Shown: positions 32,898-43,810, numbered from the stretch's first letter. The stretch: DNA of 64,000 nucleotides from Leptothermofonsia sichuanensis E412 (GCF_019891175.1 NZ_CP072600.1:4154001-4218000), one strand, 5' to 3'. The notes: generated by a model from the sequence alone, not told the origin. Program-made: numbers and translations.

Positions 32898-33653
32898 CTA
32901 CCCGATTGGCACCAACGATTTGCTATTGATCAATACGCCCGGTTCCCGTTGCATAGGCAAAACATCCAGTACATCTGTTTGGGAGCAGTATTTCAGGTCT
33001 TCATCGCAGCCAAGCCGCAGGAGCCGTTTACCGTGACTGGCATGGTGCATCAGGTCAAGCAAGTTGTCTTGCCACTGCTGGTAGAGCGCGATCGCTCCTA
33101 CCACTTCGTCGTTCTCCGCCAATTCTTCAAGCGAGCAACCCAGTTTCGTTTGTAGCTGATGAGCGATTGCTCCAGCACAGACCGTATCTTCCAGAGAAAA
33201 GCTGCCTTCCCAACCAGACCCGACAATCCATACAGTTTCGGGTTGATGTTGCAGCAAATGCTGCACAACCGCTTCCCGGTTAATCAGGGCAGCCGCTAAC
33301 ACCGTAGGTGCAGTCTGAACACACTGCAATGCCCGTGTGCCATTAGTAGTACTGATAAACAGACGCTTGCCACCTACCCGCTCTGGTGTGCAGTCCAGAG
33401 GAGAGTTCCCAAAATCAAATCCCTCTACTTTGGAGCCGCCCCGCTCTCCTGCTCGAATCCGTTTAGCCGATGACCAATCCTCGCTAACTTTTAACAGCTT
33501 ATCAAGATCGCTAAAAACCTGGACGGCTTCAGCCCCAGAGGACAGGGCAGTAACAATAGTACTGGTAGCACGCAGCACATCAACGGCGATCGCGCAATCT
33601 GCCAGCGTAGTTTCTGGAGTGAGTTCGGGGGTATAAAAGACGGACAACTTCAT
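32898..33653 (-). CDS. comB: 2-phosphosulfolactate phosphatase
   Basis: A ComB-family Mg2+-dependent phosphatase of about 251 residues. ComB dephosphorylates 2-phosphosulfolactate in archaeal coenzyme M synthesis. Many cyanobacteria carry homologues whose physiological substrate is unclear, since they do not make coenzyme M. Recognisable blocks are [44 protein letters not shown] and [19 protein letters not shown]. Start ATG 33653 ([11 protein letters not shown]) is preferred over the upstream in-frame start at 33671. Confidence 0.88.
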
Positions 33654-33968
33654 AAGATAGAAGGGGTGCAAAAAGTCAATTGTGAACTATGTGCAGGAAC
33701 GCGGCGATGCAAAATATTCTGCAAACGCTTAACATTACTGAATCATACTTGAGAGCCTTGACCAATTTCTTGACCAGGCAGAATCCTGACCGAGTAATCG
33801 TCGATTCCGCATCCATACCAGCTTTGCAGCCGGTAACGAGTTGCTTTGAGATTGCTTTCCCTTCCTGTTCCTTCCTAAAATACTCCAATTAGGAGTCTAT
33901 TCATAGTCAAAATATTTGGTATCACTAACCATATTTGGTATCACAAACCTGTCCGCCTCGGAGGATCC
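33654..33968. other. Divergent spacer between comB and the phosphoribulokinase-like gene
   Basis: About 315 bases. Two overlapping small frames on opposite strands (33676-33888 minus, 33689-33892 plus) lack ribosome-binding sites and I do not accept either. The right part contains the paired direct repeat listed at 33912-33944. Confidence 0.5.
33912..33944 (+). promoter_or_regulatory. Paired 14-bp direct repeat ATATTTGGTATCAC, candidate operator
   Basis: Exact copies at 33912-33925 and 33931-33944, a 19-base period of nearly two helical turns. The second copy ends 24 bases before the start codon of the phosphoribulokinase-like gene. The arrangement suggests binding by a dimeric or paired regulator; no known factor is matched. 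Confidence 0.45.
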
Positions 33969-34910
33969 ATGACCCATCGCCCTATCATACTTGGTATCGT
34001 TGGCGACAGCGCTGCCGGTAAAACTACGCTTACAAAGGGAATCGCCCAATTTCTAGGGCCAGAGAATGTCACGGTTATCTGTACGGATGATTACCATCGC
34101 TACGATCGCAAGCAACGCGCCGAATTGGGGATTACTGCACTCCACCCGGACTGCAACCATCTGGATATTATGCAGCAACATTTATCCCTGCTGCGCACCG
34201 GGCAGCCCATTCTGAAACCAATCTATAGCCATAAAAGCGGAACTTTCGAGGCTCCAGAATATATTAAACCCAGTCAATTTGTGATTGTTGAAGGGCTATT
34301 AGGTTACTCTACCCGCGCCGCCCGTGATTGCTACGACGTAAAGGTGTATCTGGCTCCCCCTGAATCCTTGAGGGCAAAGTGGAAGATCAAGCGCGATACC
34401 CAAAAACGCGGGTATACCGAAGAACAGGTTCTGGCAGAAATGGCCAGGCGTGAACCCGACTCCGAAAAATTCATCCGTCCTCAACGGCAGTGGGCAGACC
34501 TGGTGGTGTCCTTTTATCCACCAGAGGACGCGGCAGATGAAACCAACAGTCATTTGAATGTCCGCCTCATTCTCAGACCAAATATTCCCCACCCTGATTT
34601 GACCCAGGTAGTCAGTCCCGATTCCCAATACTCCAATGCGGCCATCCGGCTAGGACTGGCTCGCGATATGGGCAAACCTGTAGATGTTCTGGAAATTGAC
34701 GGTCATGCGACCAGTGAACAGGTCTCTGAACTGGAGCACTTTATCTGCGGTGACATTCCCCACCTGCTAAATGTCTGCAATCGGGAAATGAATCCGGAGC
34801 TGGGCAAGGTCACTGGTACCACTGGTGAAACGCTCCAGAGTTACCCCCTGGCACTCACCCAGCTTCTAGTAGCATTTCACATGCTCAAAGCAATGCATGG
34901 GCACGTTTGA
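33969..34910 (+). CDS. Phosphoribulokinase-family protein, paralogue without the P-loop cysteine
   Basis: A 313-residue kinase of the phosphoribulokinase/uridine kinase family. The P-loop is GIVGDSAAGKTTL (about residues 9-21), followed by VICTDDYHRYDRKQR, GITALHPDCNHLD, PIYSHKSGTFEAPEY and IVEGLLGYSTRAARD, all close to Calvin-cycle PRK. The canonical cyanobacterial PRK has Cys in the P-loop (GDSGCGKST), which forms the regulatory disulfide; here that residue is Ala, while the second Cys (ICTDDY) remains. It therefore cannot be switched off by that disulfide. The expected main PRK is not in the window. The substrate may still be ribulose 5-phosphate, but this is not certain. Confidence 0.85.
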   Translation: MTHRPIILGIVGDSAAGKTTLTKGIAQFLGPENVTVICTDDYHRYDRKQRAELGITALHPDCNHLDIMQQHLSLLRTGQPILKPIYSHKSGTFEAPEYIKPSQFVIVEGLLGYSTRAARDCYDVKVYLAPPESLRAKWKIKRDTQKRGYTEEQVLAEMARREPDSEKFIRPQRQWADLVVSFYPPEDAADETNSHLNVRLILRPNIPHPDLTQVVSPDSQYSNAAIRLGLARDMGKPVDVLEIDGHATSEQVSELEHFICGDIPHLLNVCNREMNPELGKVTGTTGETLQSYPLALTQLLVAFHMLKAMHGHV

Positions 34911-34920
34911 GCGTACAGAA

Positions 34921-35916
34921 TTATTCAAACAAATTGACAACACGGTATCCACGAGTATATAAAGGCACGGGACCCCCTGCGTTCCGTCGTGCTCTGGCTT
35001 CCTCCATGGTTTCATCGAATACAACCAGTTTCTCGGAGCCAACTTTTAGCCACTCTTGATAGGGAATGCAATTGTCTTCCTCAACACCACCTGTACTGGG
35101 AGGCACCATTGACCGATACAGATCGTTGAATTTCCGACGGAATCGGAAGTCAATTGAGATCCGAACTCCTTCAGATTTTCGCCTGACAGTCTGGTGCAGC
35201 CCTCGCGCATCATTAAAATACATAGTGCCATGCTGGAGCTTTGCGTCCTGATAAGAGACAACCATCGGAATGTCGCGTCCCTCATCAAAATCAGACATGA
35301 CTCTCATTGCCCCAAGTTCCATTTCACGGGGCATCTCTCCTGCCTCAATCGTGATATGGTCAATATCCCCAAATAAGGGTAATACAACCACGGTTGCGTC
35401 GGCTGGAACCCCTGCCCATACGTCACTATGAAGTTTTGAGCTGGTAAAGGGTAAGCGTAACTTCTCCGGATCAGTCTTACCATAAACCATCCGCAAGTTG
35501 ACAGGTAAATCAACTGCATCAATCAGATCATTGGCACCCAGTTGAGAGAATGCCGTAGCAACACTCTTCTGGAGGAGATTAAATTCCAGGGCATGTTCCC
35601 GCTTGGGCATCAGCAATCCAGTCCCTGTATAGTTGGGCAAGGTTCCTCTGGCTTCCAGCAATCGCTCTAGCATCTCATCCTCTGAGAGGATGATAGGGCT
35701 ACCCAGACAGGCTGAAATGTAGTCCGCTGCTGCAATTTTGATCTGTTGAAATAGCTCAGGCTTGAGTTTATGTTCAAACAGAAGGCGATACTTATGCTCT
35801 GTGGCAATTCTTTCAGCAAGCTCATCGAAAAGCTGGTCACCCAAACGAGAGAATACCATTGCATCGTCATAACTAAATTGAACAGGTGATAGGGATCTGG
35901 CTAGCAATCCTTCCAA
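34921..35916 (-). CDS. Putative Fe(II)/2-oxoglutarate-type dioxygenase
   Basis: A protein of about 331 residues that looks like a double-stranded beta-helix oxygenase. An H-x-D motif (KLHSDVW) is followed about 70 residues later by a distal His (ARGLHQTVRR) and then an Arg in EGVRISIDFRF, the spacing used to bind Fe(II) and 2-oxoglutarate. I do not recognise the precise family. Start TTG 35916 has AGGAGG (35924-35929) 7 bases upstream; the longer frame begins with GTG at 35949 and includes that ribosome-binding site. It is divergent across 740 bases from a methyltransferase and a diiron oxidase, which suggests a small specialised pathway. Confidence 0.65.
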   Translation of the reverse strand: MEGLLARSLSPVQFSYDDAMVFSRLGDQLFDELAERIATEHKYRLLFEHKLKPELFQQIKIAAADYISACLGSPIILSEDEMLERLLEARGTLPNYTGTGLLMPKREHALEFNLLQKSVATAFSQLGANDLIDAVDLPVNLRMVYGKTDPEKLRLPFTSSKLHSDVWAGVPADATVVVLPLFGDIDHITIEAGEMPREMELGAMRVMSDFDEGRDIPMVVSYQDAKLQHGTMYFNDARGLHQTVRRKSEGVRISIDFRFRRKFNDLYRSMVPPSTGGVEEDNCIPYQEWLKVGSEKLVVFDETMEEARARRNAGGPVPLYTRGYRVVNLFE

Positions 35917-36656
35917 AATGTTTCCTCCTGTGATGTCTCTAAAGATCACGTAATTCCGAAAGCTGAGGGGGGATGCTTCACTAAAAACTCAGATAAATTT
36001 TGAAGCCCCCACTTTATTGGAGATAGTTCGGGCAGTCCAATAGCCTGCATTCCCTTTTCCTGCCCTACCTGGCAGTAGTAGCCAATGTTGATTCAAAAGA
36101 CTGATTGGTCAACGAGAATAGTAGAAAGGTTTCACAATCAGAATTGTTAACAATGGAAATTCATCCCCCATTTCAACGCTAACAAATTTAGCCTGAGTGA
36201 ACTCCGCTAGATAGCTTAATCAGCGTCAGCAATCCTGGTGATATATGTTTTTTCGATCTCCGAATAAATACTTAAGTCTTGAATGAAATTAGATTGTTCC
36301 CCCCTGAAGAAATGATTGACCGAGGAAACTTGTGCAGGGACAATTATTATTTTCGAAGCAGCAAAAATATGCTGGACAGGGAATTCCAGTATGTGTGGAA
36401 TTACATCTGAACTGATTTAGATGGATGGAAAAATCAGTGATTTCAACAATTGTGAAAGGAGAAAAATCCCTGCTACAAAGAAGTTACTTAAGTGTTAATC
36501 ACATGCTTGATACAGGCAATAATGCGGAATCATCGTAGTTTGTAGAAAGTTTTCATTAGGGAAGAATTGAGAACCCTGTTGGAGTGATTGGCTCTTTACT
36601 AAGGTCTTGTTCAAAGCCTATCCAATGATGTCAATGTCCTGGATTCAGTTCCAGGT
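35917..36656. other. Long divergent promoter region of the putative biosynthetic group
   Basis: About 740 AT-rich bases between the dioxygenase and methyltransferase genes. The dioxygenase ribosome-binding site lies at 35924-35929. No RNA gene, repeat family or small gene with a ribosome-binding site was identified. Its length is notable for so compact a gene group and suggests regulated divergent promoters or a leader RNA. Confidence 0.45.
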
Positions 36657-37514
36657 TTGAACAATGAAGATCTGCTGGATAGGTTTTTAAGCATCTACGG
36701 TGTGAGACCCGATTCTGGATCTGGATTTAATGTATTGGTTGAAATGGTAATGTTAGACAACCCAACCTCAACAAGAAGTTTGTATAACTGCACGGCCTCC
36801 AACTGGGTTCGAGGAGAACCCAGTTCTTTATCAGATTTCACGGCTCGCCCAATCGTCCTGGGGCTGTGTGAACCCGTTTCGGACTTGCGCGTGCTTGACC
36901 TGGGTTGTGGTGAAGGCTATTGCAGTCGTGAGTTACGGCGGCGGGGAGCCAGCGAGGTTATTGGCATTGATTTGTCTGAGAAGATGATTGAGGCTGCCTG
37001 CTTGCAGGAGCAGGTGGATCCATTAGGGATCCGCTACGAAGTCGGATGTGCAACCAATCTGAGCCAATTTGGCGATCGCACGTTTGATCTGGTAGTGGCT
37101 GTTTTCCTCTTCAATTACCTGACGACGGCCCAAACCCAGGAATGTATGGCAGAGGTCGCCCGCATTCTCCGTCCAGGTGGGCGATTCGTTTTCAGCGTTC
37201 CCCATCCTTCTTTTCCCTACATGCGGGAAGCCAGGTATCCGTTCTACTTTCGAGTTGAAGGAAGTGGCTATTTTAGTAGCCGCGATCATAAATTTGCGGG
37301 TCAAATCTGGAAGCGAGATGGGTCATGGCTCGATGTTCAGCTTGTCCACAAGACGTTTGAGGATTACTTTGATGCTCTGAGTAGTGCTGGTTTCAAGACT
37401 CTACCAGTTCTGCGTGAACTCCGTGTTACACCAGAGCATGTTTCCCTGGATGAGGCATTTTTTGGTCCGTTGATTGATGTTCCACTTCATGTTGCTATGC
37501 AGGTATCGCGATGA
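36657..37514 (+). CDS. Class I SAM-dependent methyltransferase
   Basis: A 285-residue Rossmann-fold methyltransferase. Motif I is LRVLDLGCGEGYCSRELRRRG (about residues 77-97), with the acidic residue in VIGIDLSEKMIEAA. Motif II/III is FDLVVAVFLFNYL, and RILRPGGRFVFSVPHPSF is the motif usual in small-molecule methyltransferases. The target may be O, N or C of a small molecule. The frame opens with TTG at 36657; an internal ATG at 36744 is possible and neither has a strong ribosome-binding site. The stop overlaps the next gene's ATG (ATGA), so translation is coupled to the diiron oxidase. Confidence 0.85.
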   Translation: MNNEDLLDRFLSIYGVRPDSGSGFNVLVEMVMLDNPTSTRSLYNCTASNWVRGEPSSLSDFTARPIVLGLCEPVSDLRVLDLGCGEGYCSRELRRRGASEVIGIDLSEKMIEAACLQEQVDPLGIRYEVGCATNLSQFGDRTFDLVVAVFLFNYLTTAQTQECMAEVARILRPGGRFVFSVPHPSFPYMREARYPFYFRVEGSGYFSSRDHKFAGQIWKRDGSWLDVQLVHKTFEDYFDALSSAGFKTLPVLRELRVTPEHVSLDEAFFGPLIDVPLHVAMQVSR

Positions 37515-38239
37515 ACCCATTATCTTCTTCTGTGATGCAATCTTTCCGTGAGCTAACGGGCATTCATCCTCTATGGAATCACCCATTTCTGGTGCGGTGT
37601 CGGACTGAACAACTAACTTTCACGGAAGTCCAGATCCTTGCCGTTCAGATGTACAAGTTTTCTAAGGAGTTCAATCGCATCCTGGGGGGTATTCTATCCT
37701 GTTGCCCGGATGAAAGTGCCCAGCTTGTTATCCTGGATAACTTGTTTGATGAAATGGGTCGAGGGAATCCAGACTATGCCCATGCCGAATTGTTTCGCCG
37801 ATTTACCCGGTCTTTGGGCATCCAGGACGAAATGCTGGCAGCAATCCCTCCATCCCCTGAGACGGAAGCACTGGTTGAAACGTATTTGAAATTACCCCAC
37901 CAGTATGGTTATCTGGCAGCTCTGGGTGCGGTTTGTTTTGCCTCGGAAGGGATCGTGAGTACACTCTACAGTCAACTCTATCGAGGAATTGTCTGTGCTA
38001 CCCCCTTATCCCAGGATGCGTTAGCTTTTTTTGAAGTCCACATTGATGTGGATGATGGTCATGCGGCAAATCTGGCAGCCATTCTGGAGCATCGAATCGC
38101 AACGAATGAAGAGGCAATTGAAGTGAATCGGGCAATTCTTGAAGCCATGGATGCTCGAGTTCAATTCTTTGATGGCATTCAGCGTCAGGTAATGGAGGCT
38201 CAGTCCTCAATGGAACCACTGTTGCTTGCCAGCGTATAG
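37511..38239 (+). CDS. Haem-oxygenase-like diiron oxidase (HDO superfamily)
   Basis: A 242-residue all-helical protein of the TenA/PqqC/CADD-like fold. Candidate ligands follow the HDO pattern: Glu53 (FSKEFNRIL), Glu81 and His91 (FDEMGRGNPDYAHAELF), Glu146 (FASEGIVSTLY), and the H-x3-D-x2-H motif His177-Asp181-His184 (VHIDVDDGHAAN). HDO enzymes such as SznF, UndA and BesC carry out unusual oxidations in natural-product pathways. The start ATG overlaps the methyltransferase stop. With the divergent dioxygenase, two iron oxygenases and one methyltransferase act in one locus. The product is unknown. Confidence 0.78.
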   Translation: MNPLSSSVMQSFRELTGIHPLWNHPFLVRCRTEQLTFTEVQILAVQMYKFSKEFNRILGGILSCCPDESAQLVILDNLFDEMGRGNPDYAHAELFRRFTRSLGIQDEMLAAIPPSPETEALVETYLKLPHQYGYLAALGAVCFASEGIVSTLYSQLYRGIVCATPLSQDALAFFEVHIDVDDGHAANLAAILEHRIATNEEAIEVNRAILEAMDARVQFFDGIQRQVMEAQSSMEPLLLASV

Positions 38240-38394: not shown

Positions 38395-41196
38395 GTGTCT
38401 ACTGAAACCACTTCTCAACCAGTCCCCAAGCCAGTAGATCTAGCCAGTGTTTCCCCTGGCTTTAGCCTGCCGCCCCAACAATTTGCAGCAGTATTTCCAT
38501 TCCATATCGTCTTTAACCGAAAGCTTGAAATCCTTCAAATAGGCAATGGTTTGCAACAGGTTTATCCCAGCCTATCGATAGGAGCACCGTTTGGGCAGCA
38601 TTTTCAAATTAACCGTCCTGGAATTCAGACCACATTTGAATCGATTCAACAGCATACGCGATCGCTGTTTATGCTGGAATCGTTGCAGAATGGGATGCAA
38701 CTTAAAGGGCAAATGGTGTATGTCTGTGAGCCTGAGGTGATTGTTTTTTTAGGATCTCCCTGGATCACTCAAATTGCATCTCTAAAGGCATTCGGACTAT
38801 CACTGAAAGACTTTGCGATTCACGATCCGATTGCAGACTTTCTGTTTTTGCTTCAGGCTCAAAACACAGCCCTGGCCGATGCCAAAAAATTGACTGATCA
38901 ACTGACGCAGCAACGATCAGAACTACGCAAAACTAATCAAAAACTGGCTGCGCAGTATGCAGTTACCCATATCCTTGCAGAAGCATCCTGCTTTAATCAG
39001 GCAATTGTAAAGATCCTGGAGGCAATTGGTCATGCCCTGGATTGGCAATTAGGCGCACTGTGGGTAGTAGACGGGGGTAACCGTTCCCTCCAATGTCAGG
39101 AACTATGGCAGGCTAACCCAGAGCAATACGTTGAATTTACACGCATAAATCGTCAAGTTCAATTTGCTTCCGGTGTGGGATTACCAGGGCAGGTCTGGCA
39201 ATCTGGGGAGGCTGTTTGGGTCGAAGACCTTTGTATGGAGCATGCCTCACCCCGCAGTGCAGCAGCACATGCTGATGGAGTTCATGGTGGATTTGCTCTG
39301 CCAATCAAGCATGGTAGTCAAGTGATTGGGGTCATGGAGTTTTTCAGCCATAAGACCTGCCAGCCAGACGACGGATTGCTTGAAATGATGGCTGACATCG
39401 GGATTAAAATTGGTCAGTTTGTTCAGCGCAAACAAACCGAAGAAGCACTGCTAAAGCAGATAGAAATCTCTGCTGGATTGAAATCAATTCTTGACAGTAT
39501 GGGAGATGCTGTTCTGGTTGCGGACGAAAATGAAAAGTTCTTAGTATTTAATCCAGCCGCAGAACGCATGTTTGGAAGTCGGGCAGTCAATTTGAAGCAG
39601 TGGTTTCAAGAGTTAGGGCTTTGTCTACCAAATTGTCCGACCCCCTGGGATATGGATCATTTTCCCCTCAAACGGTCTATCCGGGGCGAGGATGTCAACG
39701 ATGTGGAGATGTTAATTCATCATCCCAACGCTCCAGATGGGCTTTGGATTACGGTGACTGGCAGACCACTCAGAGACCAGCATGGAAATCTGAAAGGGGG
39801 GGTGATTGTGTGCCGGGATATTACCGAACGGAAACAGGTAGAAGAAAAATTGCTGCACGATGCCTACCATGACGGATTAACCGGGTTAGCCAACCGGGCA
39901 CTCTTTATGGAGCGCCTGCAGCGGGCGATCGCCTCAACAAAACAACATAAAAATCATATGTTTTCGGTCCTGTTTCTGGATCTGGATCGCTTTAAGGTCA
40001 TTAATGATAGTCTGGGTCATATTGTGGGCGATCAACTTCTGATTGCGATTTCCCGCCGACTGGAAGCTTGCTTGAGACCCAGAGATACCATTGCCCGTCT
40101 GGGTGGTGATGAATTTGCCATCTTGCTTGAAAATCTACACGACAGTTCAGATGCTATTCAGATAGCGGAACGATTACAAAAGGCGCTTGTGCAGCCATTT
40201 GATCTGAATGGAATTGAAATATTTGCCAGCATCAGCATTGGTATTGCCAGCAGCACCATTCACTATGACCATCCCCAGGAGCTTTTGCGAGATGCGGATA
40301 CCGCGATGTATCACGCGAAGGCGCTGGGCAAATCCCGTTACCAGATCTTTGACAAAACGATGCACACCCGGGCAGTCACCCTGTTACAGATAGAAACTGA
40401 CCTGCGGCGCGCGATTGAGCGGCAAGAGTTTCGCTTACACTATCAACCAATTGTAAACCTGCACACCCATCAGATTATGGGGTTTGAGGCGTTAATTCGC
40501 TGGCATCATCCAGAGCGAGGACTTATTTCGCCAGCAGAATTTATTCCCATTGCTGAAGAGACGGGGTTGATCATTCCGATCGATCTGTGGTTATTGCGAG
40601 AAGCCTGTCACCAAATGCGGCACTGGCAAATGCAACTTCCTCAGGCAACCCATTTCACCATCAGTGTCAATATTTCCGGCAAGCAGTTTTCACAGCCGAA
40701 TTTGATTGAGCAGGTAAAGCATATTTTACGAGAAACAGGCCTGGATGCCTGCTGTTTAAAGCTGGAGATTACTGAGAGCGTTTTAGTGGCAAATGCAGAT
40801 ATTGCAATCCGCATGCTTCAGCAGTTGCAGGCTTTAGGTATTCAACTATCAATTGATGATTTTGGAACCGGATATTCGTCCCTCAGCTATCTGCATCGAT
40901 TTCCAATGAATACCTTGAAAATTGATCGATCGTTTACAAAGAGTATTGGTGCTGATCCGAAAAAGTTGGGGATTATAAAGACAGTAGTATCCCTTGCCCA
41001 AAATCTGGGCATGGATGTGATTGCTGAAGGCGTGGAAACATCAGAGCAGGTATCTCAACTGAAAGTATTGAACTGCACATCAGCTCAGGGTTTTTTCTTT
41101 TCTAAACCATTGGATGAGAAAACAGCCCAGGGTTTGATCTCCAAAGAGCCTCAAATAGAAGTCTCTACCCCGGTCAACGGATTGGTGAATGCTTAG
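38395..41196 (+). CDS. HNOBA - GAF - PAS - GGDEF - EAL protein
   Basis: A 933-residue signalling protein for cyclic di-GMP turnover. The N-terminal about 170 residues are an HNOBA (haem-NO-binding associated) domain (FPFHIVFNRKLEILQIGNGL, LFMLESLQNGMQLKGQMVYV, FAIHDPIADFLFLLQ). A short coiled coil, a GAF domain (about 190-350) and a PAS domain (about 360-480) follow. The GGDEF domain has LGGDEFAIL intact, and the EAL domain has FEALIRWHHPERG and DDFGTGYSSLSYL, so both synthase and phosphodiesterase activities are possible. The start is GTG at 38395 with GGAG upstream. The H-NOX gene follows after 47 bases, so NO sensing is likely to act on this enzyme. Confidence 0.92.
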   Translation: MSTETTSQPVPKPVDLASVSPGFSLPPQQFAAVFPFHIVFNRKLEILQIGNGLQQVYPSLSIGAPFGQHFQINRPGIQTTFESIQQHTRSLFMLESLQNGMQLKGQMVYVCEPEVIVFLGSPWITQIASLKAFGLSLKDFAIHDPIADFLFLLQAQNTALADAKKLTDQLTQQRSELRKTNQKLAAQYAVTHILAEASCFNQAIVKILEAIGHALDWQLGALWVVDGGNRSLQCQELWQANPEQYVEFTRINRQVQFASGVGLPGQVWQSGEAVWVEDLCMEHASPRSAAAHADGVHGGFALPIKHGSQVIGVMEFFSHKTCQPDDGLLEMMADIGIKIGQFVQRKQTEEALLKQIEISAGLKSILDSMGDAVLVADENEKFLVFNPAAERMFGSRAVNLKQWFQELGLCLPNCPTPWDMDHFPLKRSIRGEDVNDVEMLIHHPNAPDGLWITVTGRPLRDQHGNLKGGVIVCRDITERKQVEEKLLHDAYHDGLTGLANRALFMERLQRAIASTKQHKNHMFSVLFLDLDRFKVINDSLGHIVGDQLLIAISRRLEACLRPRDTIARLGGDEFAILLENLHDSSDAIQIAERLQKALVQPFDLNGIEIFASISIGIASSTIHYDHPQELLRDADTAMYHAKALGKSRYQIFDKTMHTRAVTLLQIETDLRRAIERQEFRLHYQPIVNLHTHQIMGFEALIRWHHPERGLISPAEFIPIAEETGLIIPIDLWLLREACHQMRHWQMQLPQATHFTISVNISGKQFSQPNLIEQVKHILRETGLDACCLKLEITESVLVANADIAIRMLQQLQALGIQLSIDDFGTGYSSLSYLHRFPMNTLKIDRSFTKSIGADPKKLGIIKTVVSLAQNLGMDVIAEGVETSEQVSQLKVLNCTSAQGFFFSKPLDEKTAQGLISKEPQIEVSTPVNGLVNA

Positions 41197-41243: not shown

Positions 41244-41810
41244 ATGTACGGATTGGTCAACAAAGCAATTGAAGACATGGTTTGTAGTCATTTTGGTGAA
41301 GAAACCTGGCAAACCATTAAACAGCAGGCTGAAATTGAAAGTGATACGTTCATCAGTATGGAAGCCTATCCTGATGATATCACCCATCGACTGGTGAAAG
41401 CCGCAAGTCAGGTTCTGGGGCTATCTTCTTCAGAAATTATGCAGGCATTTGGAGAATACTGGGTTCAGTATACGGCTCAGGAAGGCTATGGTGAAATGCT
41501 GGAGATGAGTGGAGATAATTTGCCGGAGTTTCTGCAAAACCTGGATAATCTCCATGCTCGCGTAGGTGTGAGTTTTCCCCAGCTTAAACCGCCTTCATTT
41601 GAATGCACGGATTTGGAGGATGAATCTCTGAGTCTGCACTACCGCTCCATGCGAGAGGGGCTGGCTCCTATGGTGATTGGTCTGGTGAAAGGATTGGGAG
41701 CCCGGTTTGATACAGAAGTTGATGTGACTCAAATGGAGAAACGGTCTGAGGGAGCGGAGCATGACACATTTTTAGTCAAATACAAACCGAACGAAAGTAC
41801 ACCTGCTTAG
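41244..41810 (+). CDS. H-NOX haem nitric oxide/oxygen sensor
   Basis: Stand-alone H-NOX domain protein, 188 residues. [13 protein letters not shown] at the N-terminus, the proximal haem ligand His104 in [15 protein letters not shown], and the haem-propionate motif Y-x-S-x-R (Tyr133, Ser135, Arg137 in HYRSMREGL) are all present. The sequence is very like the structurally characterised Nostoc H-NOX. It has AGGAG before the ATG. Soluble H-NOX proteins bind NO and regulate HNOBA-type partners; one lies on each side of this gene. Confidence 0.96.
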
Positions 41811-42310: not shown

Positions 42311-43810
42311 ATGGTCACTGCTCATCTCAGCCTTCCTCCCCATTTATTTGCGAAGGCGTTTCCATTCCATTTTGTGTTTAACAGTAATCGAGAGATTATT
42401 CAGGCGGGCGATGTTTTGCAACGCCTCAGCCCTGAACCAATGATAAACAGTGTACTGGAGCACCATTTTCAGATTACTCGTCCAAATATACCATTAGATT
42501 TTGAAGCCATTAAAAAACAGTCGCGATCGCTGTTTATGCTTGAGTCCCTGCATAATGGAATGCAGCTTAAAGGGCAAATGATGTATGTCGAGAACCAGGA
42601 CACCATTTTCTTTCTTGGCTCTCCCTGGGTCACTGACACTGCCAGTCTGGGAACTTTTGGTGTCAAGCTTAAAGATTTTGCGATTCACGATCCGATTGTT
42701 GATTTCCTGTTTCTGCTGCAAACAAAAAATACTGCTCTGGCTGATGCCAAGAAACTGACAGACGAATTAACTCAGCAGCGAGCGCAGTTGCGAAGTGCGT
42801 TACAACTCAAGGAAAGTCTGGCAAATATTGCTGAAGCTCAGGCTCAGAAACTGGAGCAGGCTCTGAAAGAACTTCAGCAGACTCAGACTCAGTTAATTCA
42901 GACTGAGAAAATGTCCAGTCTGGGGCAACTGGTTGCAGGAATTGCCCATGAGATTAATAATCCGGTCAACTTCATTCACGGTAATTTGAAACATGTGGAT
43001 GACTACGCTAAAGATCTGCTGGAGCTTCTGAAGCTTTATCAAAAGTACTATGCCCAACCTGTTCCAGCGATTCAAGAACACATGGATGAAGTTGATCTGG
43101 AATTTCTGCTGGAGGATTTTCCTAAAATCCTGACTTCAATGAAGATAGGGTGTGACCGGATTCGTCAAATTGTGCTGTCCCTGCGCAATTTCTCTCGTTT
43201 AGACGAGGCAGAAATGAAGCAGGTGGATATCCATGAGGGAATTGATAGTACGTTGCTAATTTTGCAGCACCGACTTAAGCCTAGAGGGGAATATCCTGAG
43301 ATCCAGGTAGTGAAGAATTATGGAAATTTGCCCCTGGTAGAATGTTCTGCCAGTCAAATCAACCAGGTGTTTATGAATCTAATTAGCAATGCGATCGATG
43401 CTCTGGAAACTTACAATAGCCAGCGATCGCTTGCTGATCTGAATAGGAATCCCAGCCAGATTACAATTACGACCGAAGTTTTGAAGCCAAATCGAGTCAC
43501 TATCCGAATTGCAGACAATGGACCAGGAATGCCAGAATCAGTCCGGGAACGGTTGTTTGAACCCTTTTTTACAACCAAGCCCATTGGCAAGGGAACAGGG
43601 CTGGGACTATCCATCAGCTATCAAATTGTGGTCGAGAAGCATGGAGGCTCCATCTGGTGCGTATCTCAACCGGGATGTGGATCCGAGTTCTGGATTGAAA
43701 TCCCTATATTTTTTGAATGCCAGATTCCTAACTATGCCATAGCCTGTGAGTCAAACCTCCTGGTTGTAGCCAGGGATACGGAGGCGGAATCTAGCTTGCA
43801 GGTCAATTAA
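42311..43810 (+). CDS. HNOBA-domain sensor histidine kinase
   Basis: A 499-residue kinase. The N-terminal HNOBA domain (FPFHFVFNSNREII, LFMLESLHNGMQLKGQMMYV, FAIHDPIVDFLFLLQ) is a clear paralogue of the one in the GGDEF-EAL protein. A coiled coil (about 150-200) leads to a HisKA region with phospho-acceptor His in GIAHEINNPVNFIHG. The ATPase domain has N-box NLISNAIDALE, ADNGPGMPE, FEPFFTTKPIGKGTGLGLSI and a final GSEFWIEIP. No response regulator lies next to it. It is inferred to be regulated by the H-NOX upstream. Confidence 0.92.
   Translation: MVTAHLSLPPHLFAKAFPFHFVFNSNREIIQAGDVLQRLSPEPMINSVLEHHFQITRPNIPLDFEAIKKQSRSLFMLESLHNGMQLKGQMMYVENQDTIFFLGSPWVTDTASLGTFGVKLKDFAIHDPIVDFLFLLQTKNTALADAKKLTDELTQQRAQLRSALQLKESLANIAEAQAQKLEQALKELQQTQTQLIQTEKMSSLGQLVAGIAHEINNPVNFIHGNLKHVDDYAKDLLELLKLYQKYYAQPVPAIQEHMDEVDLEFLLEDFPKILTSMKIGCDRIRQIVLSLRNFSRLDEAEMKQVDIHEGIDSTLLILQHRLKPRGEYPEIQVVKNYGNLPLVECSASQINQVFMNLISNAIDALETYNSQRSLADLNRNPSQITITTEVLKPNRVTIRIADNGPGMPESVRERLFEPFFTTKPIGKGTGLGLSISYQIVVEKHGGSIWCVSQPGCGSEFWIEIPIFFECQIPNYAIACESNLLVVARDTEAESSLQVN

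Follow-up and report, generated by a model that had tools for sequence, protein, structure and literature searches.

The window, by which we mean the whole 64,000-nucleotide stretch of DNA analysed here (G000:C1:4154001-4218000), belongs to a cyanobacterial genome of 6.43 Mb held in a single contig. The first-pass annotation had described a compact group of three genes within it, a description that holds for the genes and their linkage and falls short in extent. The three open reading frames were located at 34921-35949 (minus strand), 36657-37514 (plus strand) and 37511-38239 (plus strand); they stand as genes, and it is two of the starts that had to be moved. Homology places that of the methyltransferase at ATG 36744, not TTG 36657, while the dioxygenase gene probably begins at TTG 35916, behind an AGGAGG, since its relatives begin at about this position. 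As a consequence of these corrections the region separating the divergent genes, originally given as 740 bases, becomes about 0.8 kb. The 4-nt overlap (ATGA) between the methyltransferase and oxidase genes is present as annotated and is common to most relatives. Downstream, the conserved block reaches as far as 43810 by way of H-NOX and HNOBA proteins; these nitric oxide (NO)-sensing genes, and with them the likely biological context, had been missed. The features of the block are as follows.

34921 to 35949, minus strand: DOX, predicted PhyH-type Fe(II)/2-oxoglutarate (2OG) dioxygenase of an undescribed family; likely start TTG 35916
35917 to 36743, no strand: divergent regulatory region, about 0.8 kb
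36426 to 36453, plus strand: conserved cis element AAAATCRGTRAWWTYAACAWT, upstream of MT
36744 to 37514, plus strand: MT, class I SAM methyltransferase (Methyltransf_25/11), 256 aa
37511 to 38239, plus strand: HDO, haem-oxygenase-like dimetal oxidase with a 3H/3C ligand set
38395 to 41196, plus strand: HNOBA-GAF-PAS-GGDEF-EAL protein, with c-di-GMP turnover domains
41244 to 41810, plus strand: H-NOX, haem-based sensor of nitric oxide with an HNOB domain, close to Alr2278 of Nostoc PCC 7120
42311 to 43810, plus strand: HNOBA-HisKA-HATPase sensor histidine kinase, the usual partner of H-NOX

Adjoining DOX, at 32898-34910, are genes for a divergent 2-phosphosulpholactate phosphatase (PF04029) and a PRK07429-type phosphoribulokinase-like protein, neither of which is kept beside the cassette (DOX, MT and HDO) at other loci.

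Linkage of the cassette to H-NOX genes

A scan for DOX across 84,980 species genomes, covering all species and detecting near relatives only, returned 42 loci, every one of them cyanobacterial. With the window these make 43, and one (L027) ends at a contig end, leaving 42 that are evaluable. Failure of the three genes to be neighbours in related genomes had been named in advance as a ground for refutation, and they are indeed neighbours: MT, HDO and H-NOX lie in one block with DOX at 41 of the 42, window included. Neighbour clustering identified two further genes, those for H-NOX and the HNOBA histidine kinase, each recurring in 41 loci, and the kinase follows the block wherever the contig reaches. 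The exception is L038, in which a partial deletion has removed MT, HDO, H-NOX and the start of the kinase. Gene order and strand are conserved, typically with DOX divergent from MT-HDO; a collinear DOX-MT-HDO-H-NOX variant occurs in L039, L041 and L044.

In most Nostocales the block occupies a single locus between apcEAB and ftsW, and because this locus is largely vertically inherited many of the copies are not independent. Altogether the block occurs in about ten genomic contexts, those beyond the Nostocales locus being the window, L013, L028/L033, L037 and L039-L044. An even sampling of cyanobacteria, 386 genomes in all, showed intact DOX in eight, and exactly these eight carry a close HDO (E<1e-90). 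The cassette adjoins H-NOX in all of these; H-NOX itself is found in 28 of the 386, and most of the remaining H-NOX genomes carry it with an HNOBA protein and no cassette. Hence, the cassette goes with the sensor, which for its part can do without the cassette. The chance of all eight falling within the 28 is about 3e-10 by simple counting, a figure inflated by shared descent, and the roughly ten distinct contexts are the better argument for linkage. No intact DOX-MT-HDO was seen away from H-NOX in the loci and genomes surveyed.

Losses were also evident within the Nostocales. At the apcEAB-ftsW locus of genome G340 (L127), what remains of HDO and DOX is a fusion of their tails beside an intact H-NOX gene, only the enzyme cassette having been removed. 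In G167 (L142) the last 26 residues of DOX are left between apcAB and ftsW and all five genes are gone; the L038 deletion is a third, different one. In the H-NOX tree, the sampled cassette copies fall inside one starred clade with losses interspersed, and the distance matrices of the five proteins show pairwise correlations of 0.79-0.89, as expected of long co-inheritance. The literature that we covered, with few subscription papers among it, held no description of H-NOX linked to an oxygenase/methyltransferase cassette.

The H-NOX of the window matches PF07700 (HNOB domain) at 1e-58 and aligns closely with Alr2278 of Nostoc PCC 7120, with the proximal His and the Y-x-S-x-R motif kept. Alr2278 serves as a model for human guanylate cyclase, and many of its structures have been solved; we know of no target described for its pathway in cyanobacteria. 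The H-NOX and kinase genes come straight after HDO, usually with 2-24 nt between the two. The gap of 72-414 nt that separates HDO from H-NOX in loci free of an insert means that the sensor pair may be transcribed separately. This distance grows to about 3 kb where a GGDEF-EAL gene intervenes, encoding a protein of about 930 residues; three loci have it at this position, the window, L039 and L041, all of them outside the Nostocales. The window protein has the architecture HNOBA-GAF-PAS-GGDEF-EAL, tying the module to c-di-GMP, and its counterparts are similar in length.

A second conserved block, AAATACGGWTGYA followed by AYTARAATRCAA, lies in the HDO-H-NOX gap of Nostocales (for example in L003, L004, L010, L018 and L026) and is perhaps the H-NOX promoter. 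The AAATACGGWTG block before H-NOX was considered as a SigJ J-box and rejected, there being no match to the J-box sequence GGGaAtacT (PMC6495340).

A recurrent element in the divergent region

Across 18 representative divergent regions, the core AATCAGT/ACTGATT occurs 14 times, against 2.2 in shuffles. A weight matrix resolves it as RTCRGTRAAWTYAACATTA, some 100-135 nt before MT in most loci and 318 nt before it in the window, with ATGTTARAACATA about 17 nt further on. Matches to the matrix are present in nearly all divergent loci, and scores are low at loci lacking the cassette. In the collinear loci, where DOX comes first, a related core (TCTGTATTTTCAAC) lies ahead of that gene. Within its own 6.43-Mb genome the element has exactly one match at up to one mismatch, that at 36426-36453 of the window. 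It looks like a dedicated, albeit putative, control element. A sigma-70 promoter scan of the divergent gap gave no excess over shuffles. The DOX-MT gap contains no small open reading frame common to more than a few near copies, and a RiPP precursor in this gap was rejected on the same ground; the original proposal, that the group lacks NRPS, PKS and RiPP genes and may modify some simple metabolite, is compatible with the evidence.

DOX, MT and HDO

Conservation of the metal ligands in both oxygenases had been set beforehand as a refutation test, and all of them proved invariant in 22 aligned relatives. In DOX these are H174-x-D176 and H252, together with R263, 11 residues past the distal His; this HxD...H...R arrangement constitutes a ligand and 2OG-anchor set and bears out the spacing described at the outset. 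The window DOX is without a family match in Pfam or NCBIfam and without a sequence match in the PDB, and the 22 members gave no relevant family match in Pfam. Its AlphaFold2 (AF2) model reaches a mean pLDDT of 68 and a pTM of 0.76, a moderate level of confidence, and is weak at the active site. Compared with solved structures for the double-stranded beta-helix fold of this enzyme class, it has Fe/2OG enzymes as its top Foldseek matches and in nearly all of the listed VIA rows, with Z at most 8.9; these include FtmOx1, KanJ, AviO1, PtlH and EctD, of the PhyH/EctD/PtlH kind, at modest scores. Taken together, the invariant motif and the structural matches make it likely that DOX is an Fe(II)/2OG dioxygenase of PhyH/EctD type. 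A profile built from the DOX alignment recovered the same eight of the 386 cyanobacterial genomes and two remnants only. Within the databases and genomes searched, DOX is therefore an orphan, an undescribed family confined to this cassette. It is also absent from the plasmid and phage collections searched, on which ground an origin of the cassette from a mobile element or phage was rejected.

MT belongs among the generic class I SAM methyltransferases, and its nearest solved relatives include ToxA and MitM.

The invariant HDO residues are E81, H91, E146, H177, D181 and H184, the last three forming the H-x3-D-x2-H pattern that had been noted. Three His and three carboxylates on core helices make this a 3H/3C site, a ligand set found in most HDOs (PMC13108848). 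The seven-helix haem-oxygenase fold is present in the AF2 model (pLDDT 90), and the sequence matches PF14518, with weak matches to the CADD and BesC models. By sequence and by structure alike, HDO comes nearest to CADD (1rcw/8va9; Z 27.2, 1.8 Å over 213 residues, 25% identity), and further fold matches are HrmI (Z 25), BesC (Z 23.6) and UndA (Z 22). The best NCBIfam family is TIGR04305, yet at 86 bits HDO lies far below its cut-off of 200, and against the BesC chloro-allylglycine synthase equivalog it reaches 54 bits for a cut-off of 500. The E81-x9-H91 loop (DEMGxGxxxxxH) is common to HrmI; in CADD and BesC it is three residues shorter. An SznF-type 3H/4C site was rejected, because the extra Glu is not conserved: the sole nearby acidic residue, E53 (position taken from the sequence), is replaced by N, Q or V in part of the relatives. 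Tyr27 and Lys152 of CADD, its sacrificial residue and its amino donor, respectively, align with Leu27 and Leu156 of the window HDO. The reaction type is not fixed by the HDO residues.

The same genome encodes a second, distant HDO of CADD/BesC-like character (about 29% identity) at G000:C1:360470-361087 (L002), relatives of which are scattered in cyanobacteria.

Discussion

Our analysis agrees with the enzyme classes and co-occurrence first proposed and sets them beside a sensor. On balance, we consider it probable that DOX, MT and HDO form one small-molecule pathway whose expression is coupled to NO sensing by the adjoining H-NOX and HNOBA kinase. A single shared pathway is strongly indicated and NO control of the cassette moderately so; N-oxygenation chemistry and an amino-acid substrate are weakly suggested. 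Amino or fatty acids are the main substrates of the HDOs characterised so far (PMC13108848), and this, together with the known pairs of HDO and Fe/2OG enzymes, favours a three-step tailoring of a small primary metabolite. NO-dependent control is favoured because H-NOX proteins, on sensing NO, commonly adjust the activity of kinases and of c-di-GMP enzymes (PMC8846402). There is no response regulator in the block, and so it is from adjacency that we infer H-NOX control of the cassette.

According to this model, the presence or absence of NO at the haem of H-NOX would change the activity of the kinase. An unlinked response regulator or other factor would then act on the conserved element that precedes the first gene, and the enzymes of the cassette would be made. 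HDO would perform the key O2-dependent step, either an N-oxygenation or an oxidative cleavage or desaturation; DOX would carry out a C-H oxidation or ring closure and MT would cap the product. The outcome would be an oxidised, methylated small molecule, probably with a free amino acid, or a primary metabolite of that sort, as its precursor. In the window, the HNOBA-GGDEF-EAL protein may join the H-NOX and HNOBA kinase in this coupling. The cassette offers a concrete, testable target for the H-NOX pathway in many Nostocales, and the combination of an undescribed dioxygenase family with a diiron oxidase, the two working together on what is probably a simple metabolite, is a promising place to look for new chemistry.

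The cassette may conversely be the input to the sensor and not its output. Here HDO would N-oxygenate an amine or guanidine, MT would N-methylate and DOX would rearrange, making NO itself or else an N-oxygenated compound from which NO or nitrite is released; detection by H-NOX would close a self-signalling loop. We regard this as unlikely, albeit the strongest of the alternatives. It would account for the intact cassette never having been seen apart from H-NOX, N-oxygenating HDOs are established (PMC13108848), and the HDO fold is near that of the N-oxygenase HrmI, with which the DEMGxGxxxxxH loop is common. Against it, HDO has neither an SznF-type cupin domain nor the conserved extra Glu of SznF, its site being 3H/3C, yet so is that of HrmI. 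Furthermore, most H-NOX loci are without the cassette and must there make use of other NO. If the product does release NO, cassette-bearing cyanobacteria would possess an enzymatic source of NO. One may speculate further that orphan Fe/2OG enzyme, methyltransferase and diiron N-oxygenase constitute a self-contained unit, making an NO-releasing or N-N/N-O molecule that is sensed by the adjoining H-NOX. We hold this stricter proposal to be a little less probable still; if true, it would amount to an enzymatic NO-signal source with its own receptor, independent of NO synthase, in cyanobacteria.

Less probable again is a protective function, in which H-NOX would switch the enzymes on under NO, for the oxidation or methylation of some metabolite that NO has damaged. 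The linkage and repeated loss would fit such a role, provided that the losing lineages meet less NO. However, the cassette enzymes bear no known relation to NO-detoxifying enzymes, and two O2-dependent oxygenases with a methyltransferase are more usual in synthesis than in repair. That the linkage is mere positional conservation, with no shared function, could be argued from the one apcEAB-ftsW locus of most Nostocales; we find it very improbable, as about ten further contexts retain the block, among them the rearranged collinear form, and DOX is found nowhere else in the genomes searched. Identity of HDO as a CADD-type self-sacrificing 4-aminobenzoate synthase, with the group serving folate supply, is suggested by its best sequence, structure and family matches and can be rejected almost outright, since the Tyr and Lys are replaced by Leu, and a folate route would leave MT, DOX and H-NOX without a role.

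Comparison with known systems

Among the closest parallels to a coupled pathway of DOX, MT and HDO are BelK/HrmI and BelL/HrmJ, pairs of an HDO and an Fe/2OG enzyme that act sequentially on one free amino acid (PMC10764440). In belactosin and hormaomycin synthesis their route runs from lysine through nitronorleucine to nitrocyclopropylalanine. As there, an HDO and an Fe/2OG enzyme share one cluster here, and HrmI is among the nearest HDO structures, at 18% identity over 224 aligned residues; DOX has no sequence match to solved proteins. Unlike those clusters, the cassette has no adjoining NRPS or ATP-grasp genes, and MT and H-NOX are added.

In streptozotocin synthesis, the methyltransferase SznE performs N-methylation and the HDO SznF N-oxygenation. 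The cassette likewise pairs a methyltransferase with an HDO; however, this HDO lacks the fused cupin and the conserved 3H/4C Glu, and a 2OG dioxygenase is present instead. BesC and BesD of the beta-ethynylserine pathway similarly combine an HDO close to ours with an Fe/2OG enzyme, but the DOX site is HxD, of hydroxylase type, and not the Asp-less site of a halogenase, and no PLP enzyme BesB adjoins. CADD shares the fold and all six metal ligands with HDO and differs in its sacrificial Tyr and Lys.

The sensor genes, for their part, resemble H-NOX/HNOBA-kinase and H-NOX/GGDEF-EAL systems, such as those of Alr2278 and of Shewanella HnoX-HnoK-HnoB, in which a stand-alone H-NOX lies beside a kinase or c-di-GMP protein. 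What sets the present block apart from the bacterial H-NOX systems that we found in the literature is the oxygenase/methyltransferase cassette to which its sensor is linked.
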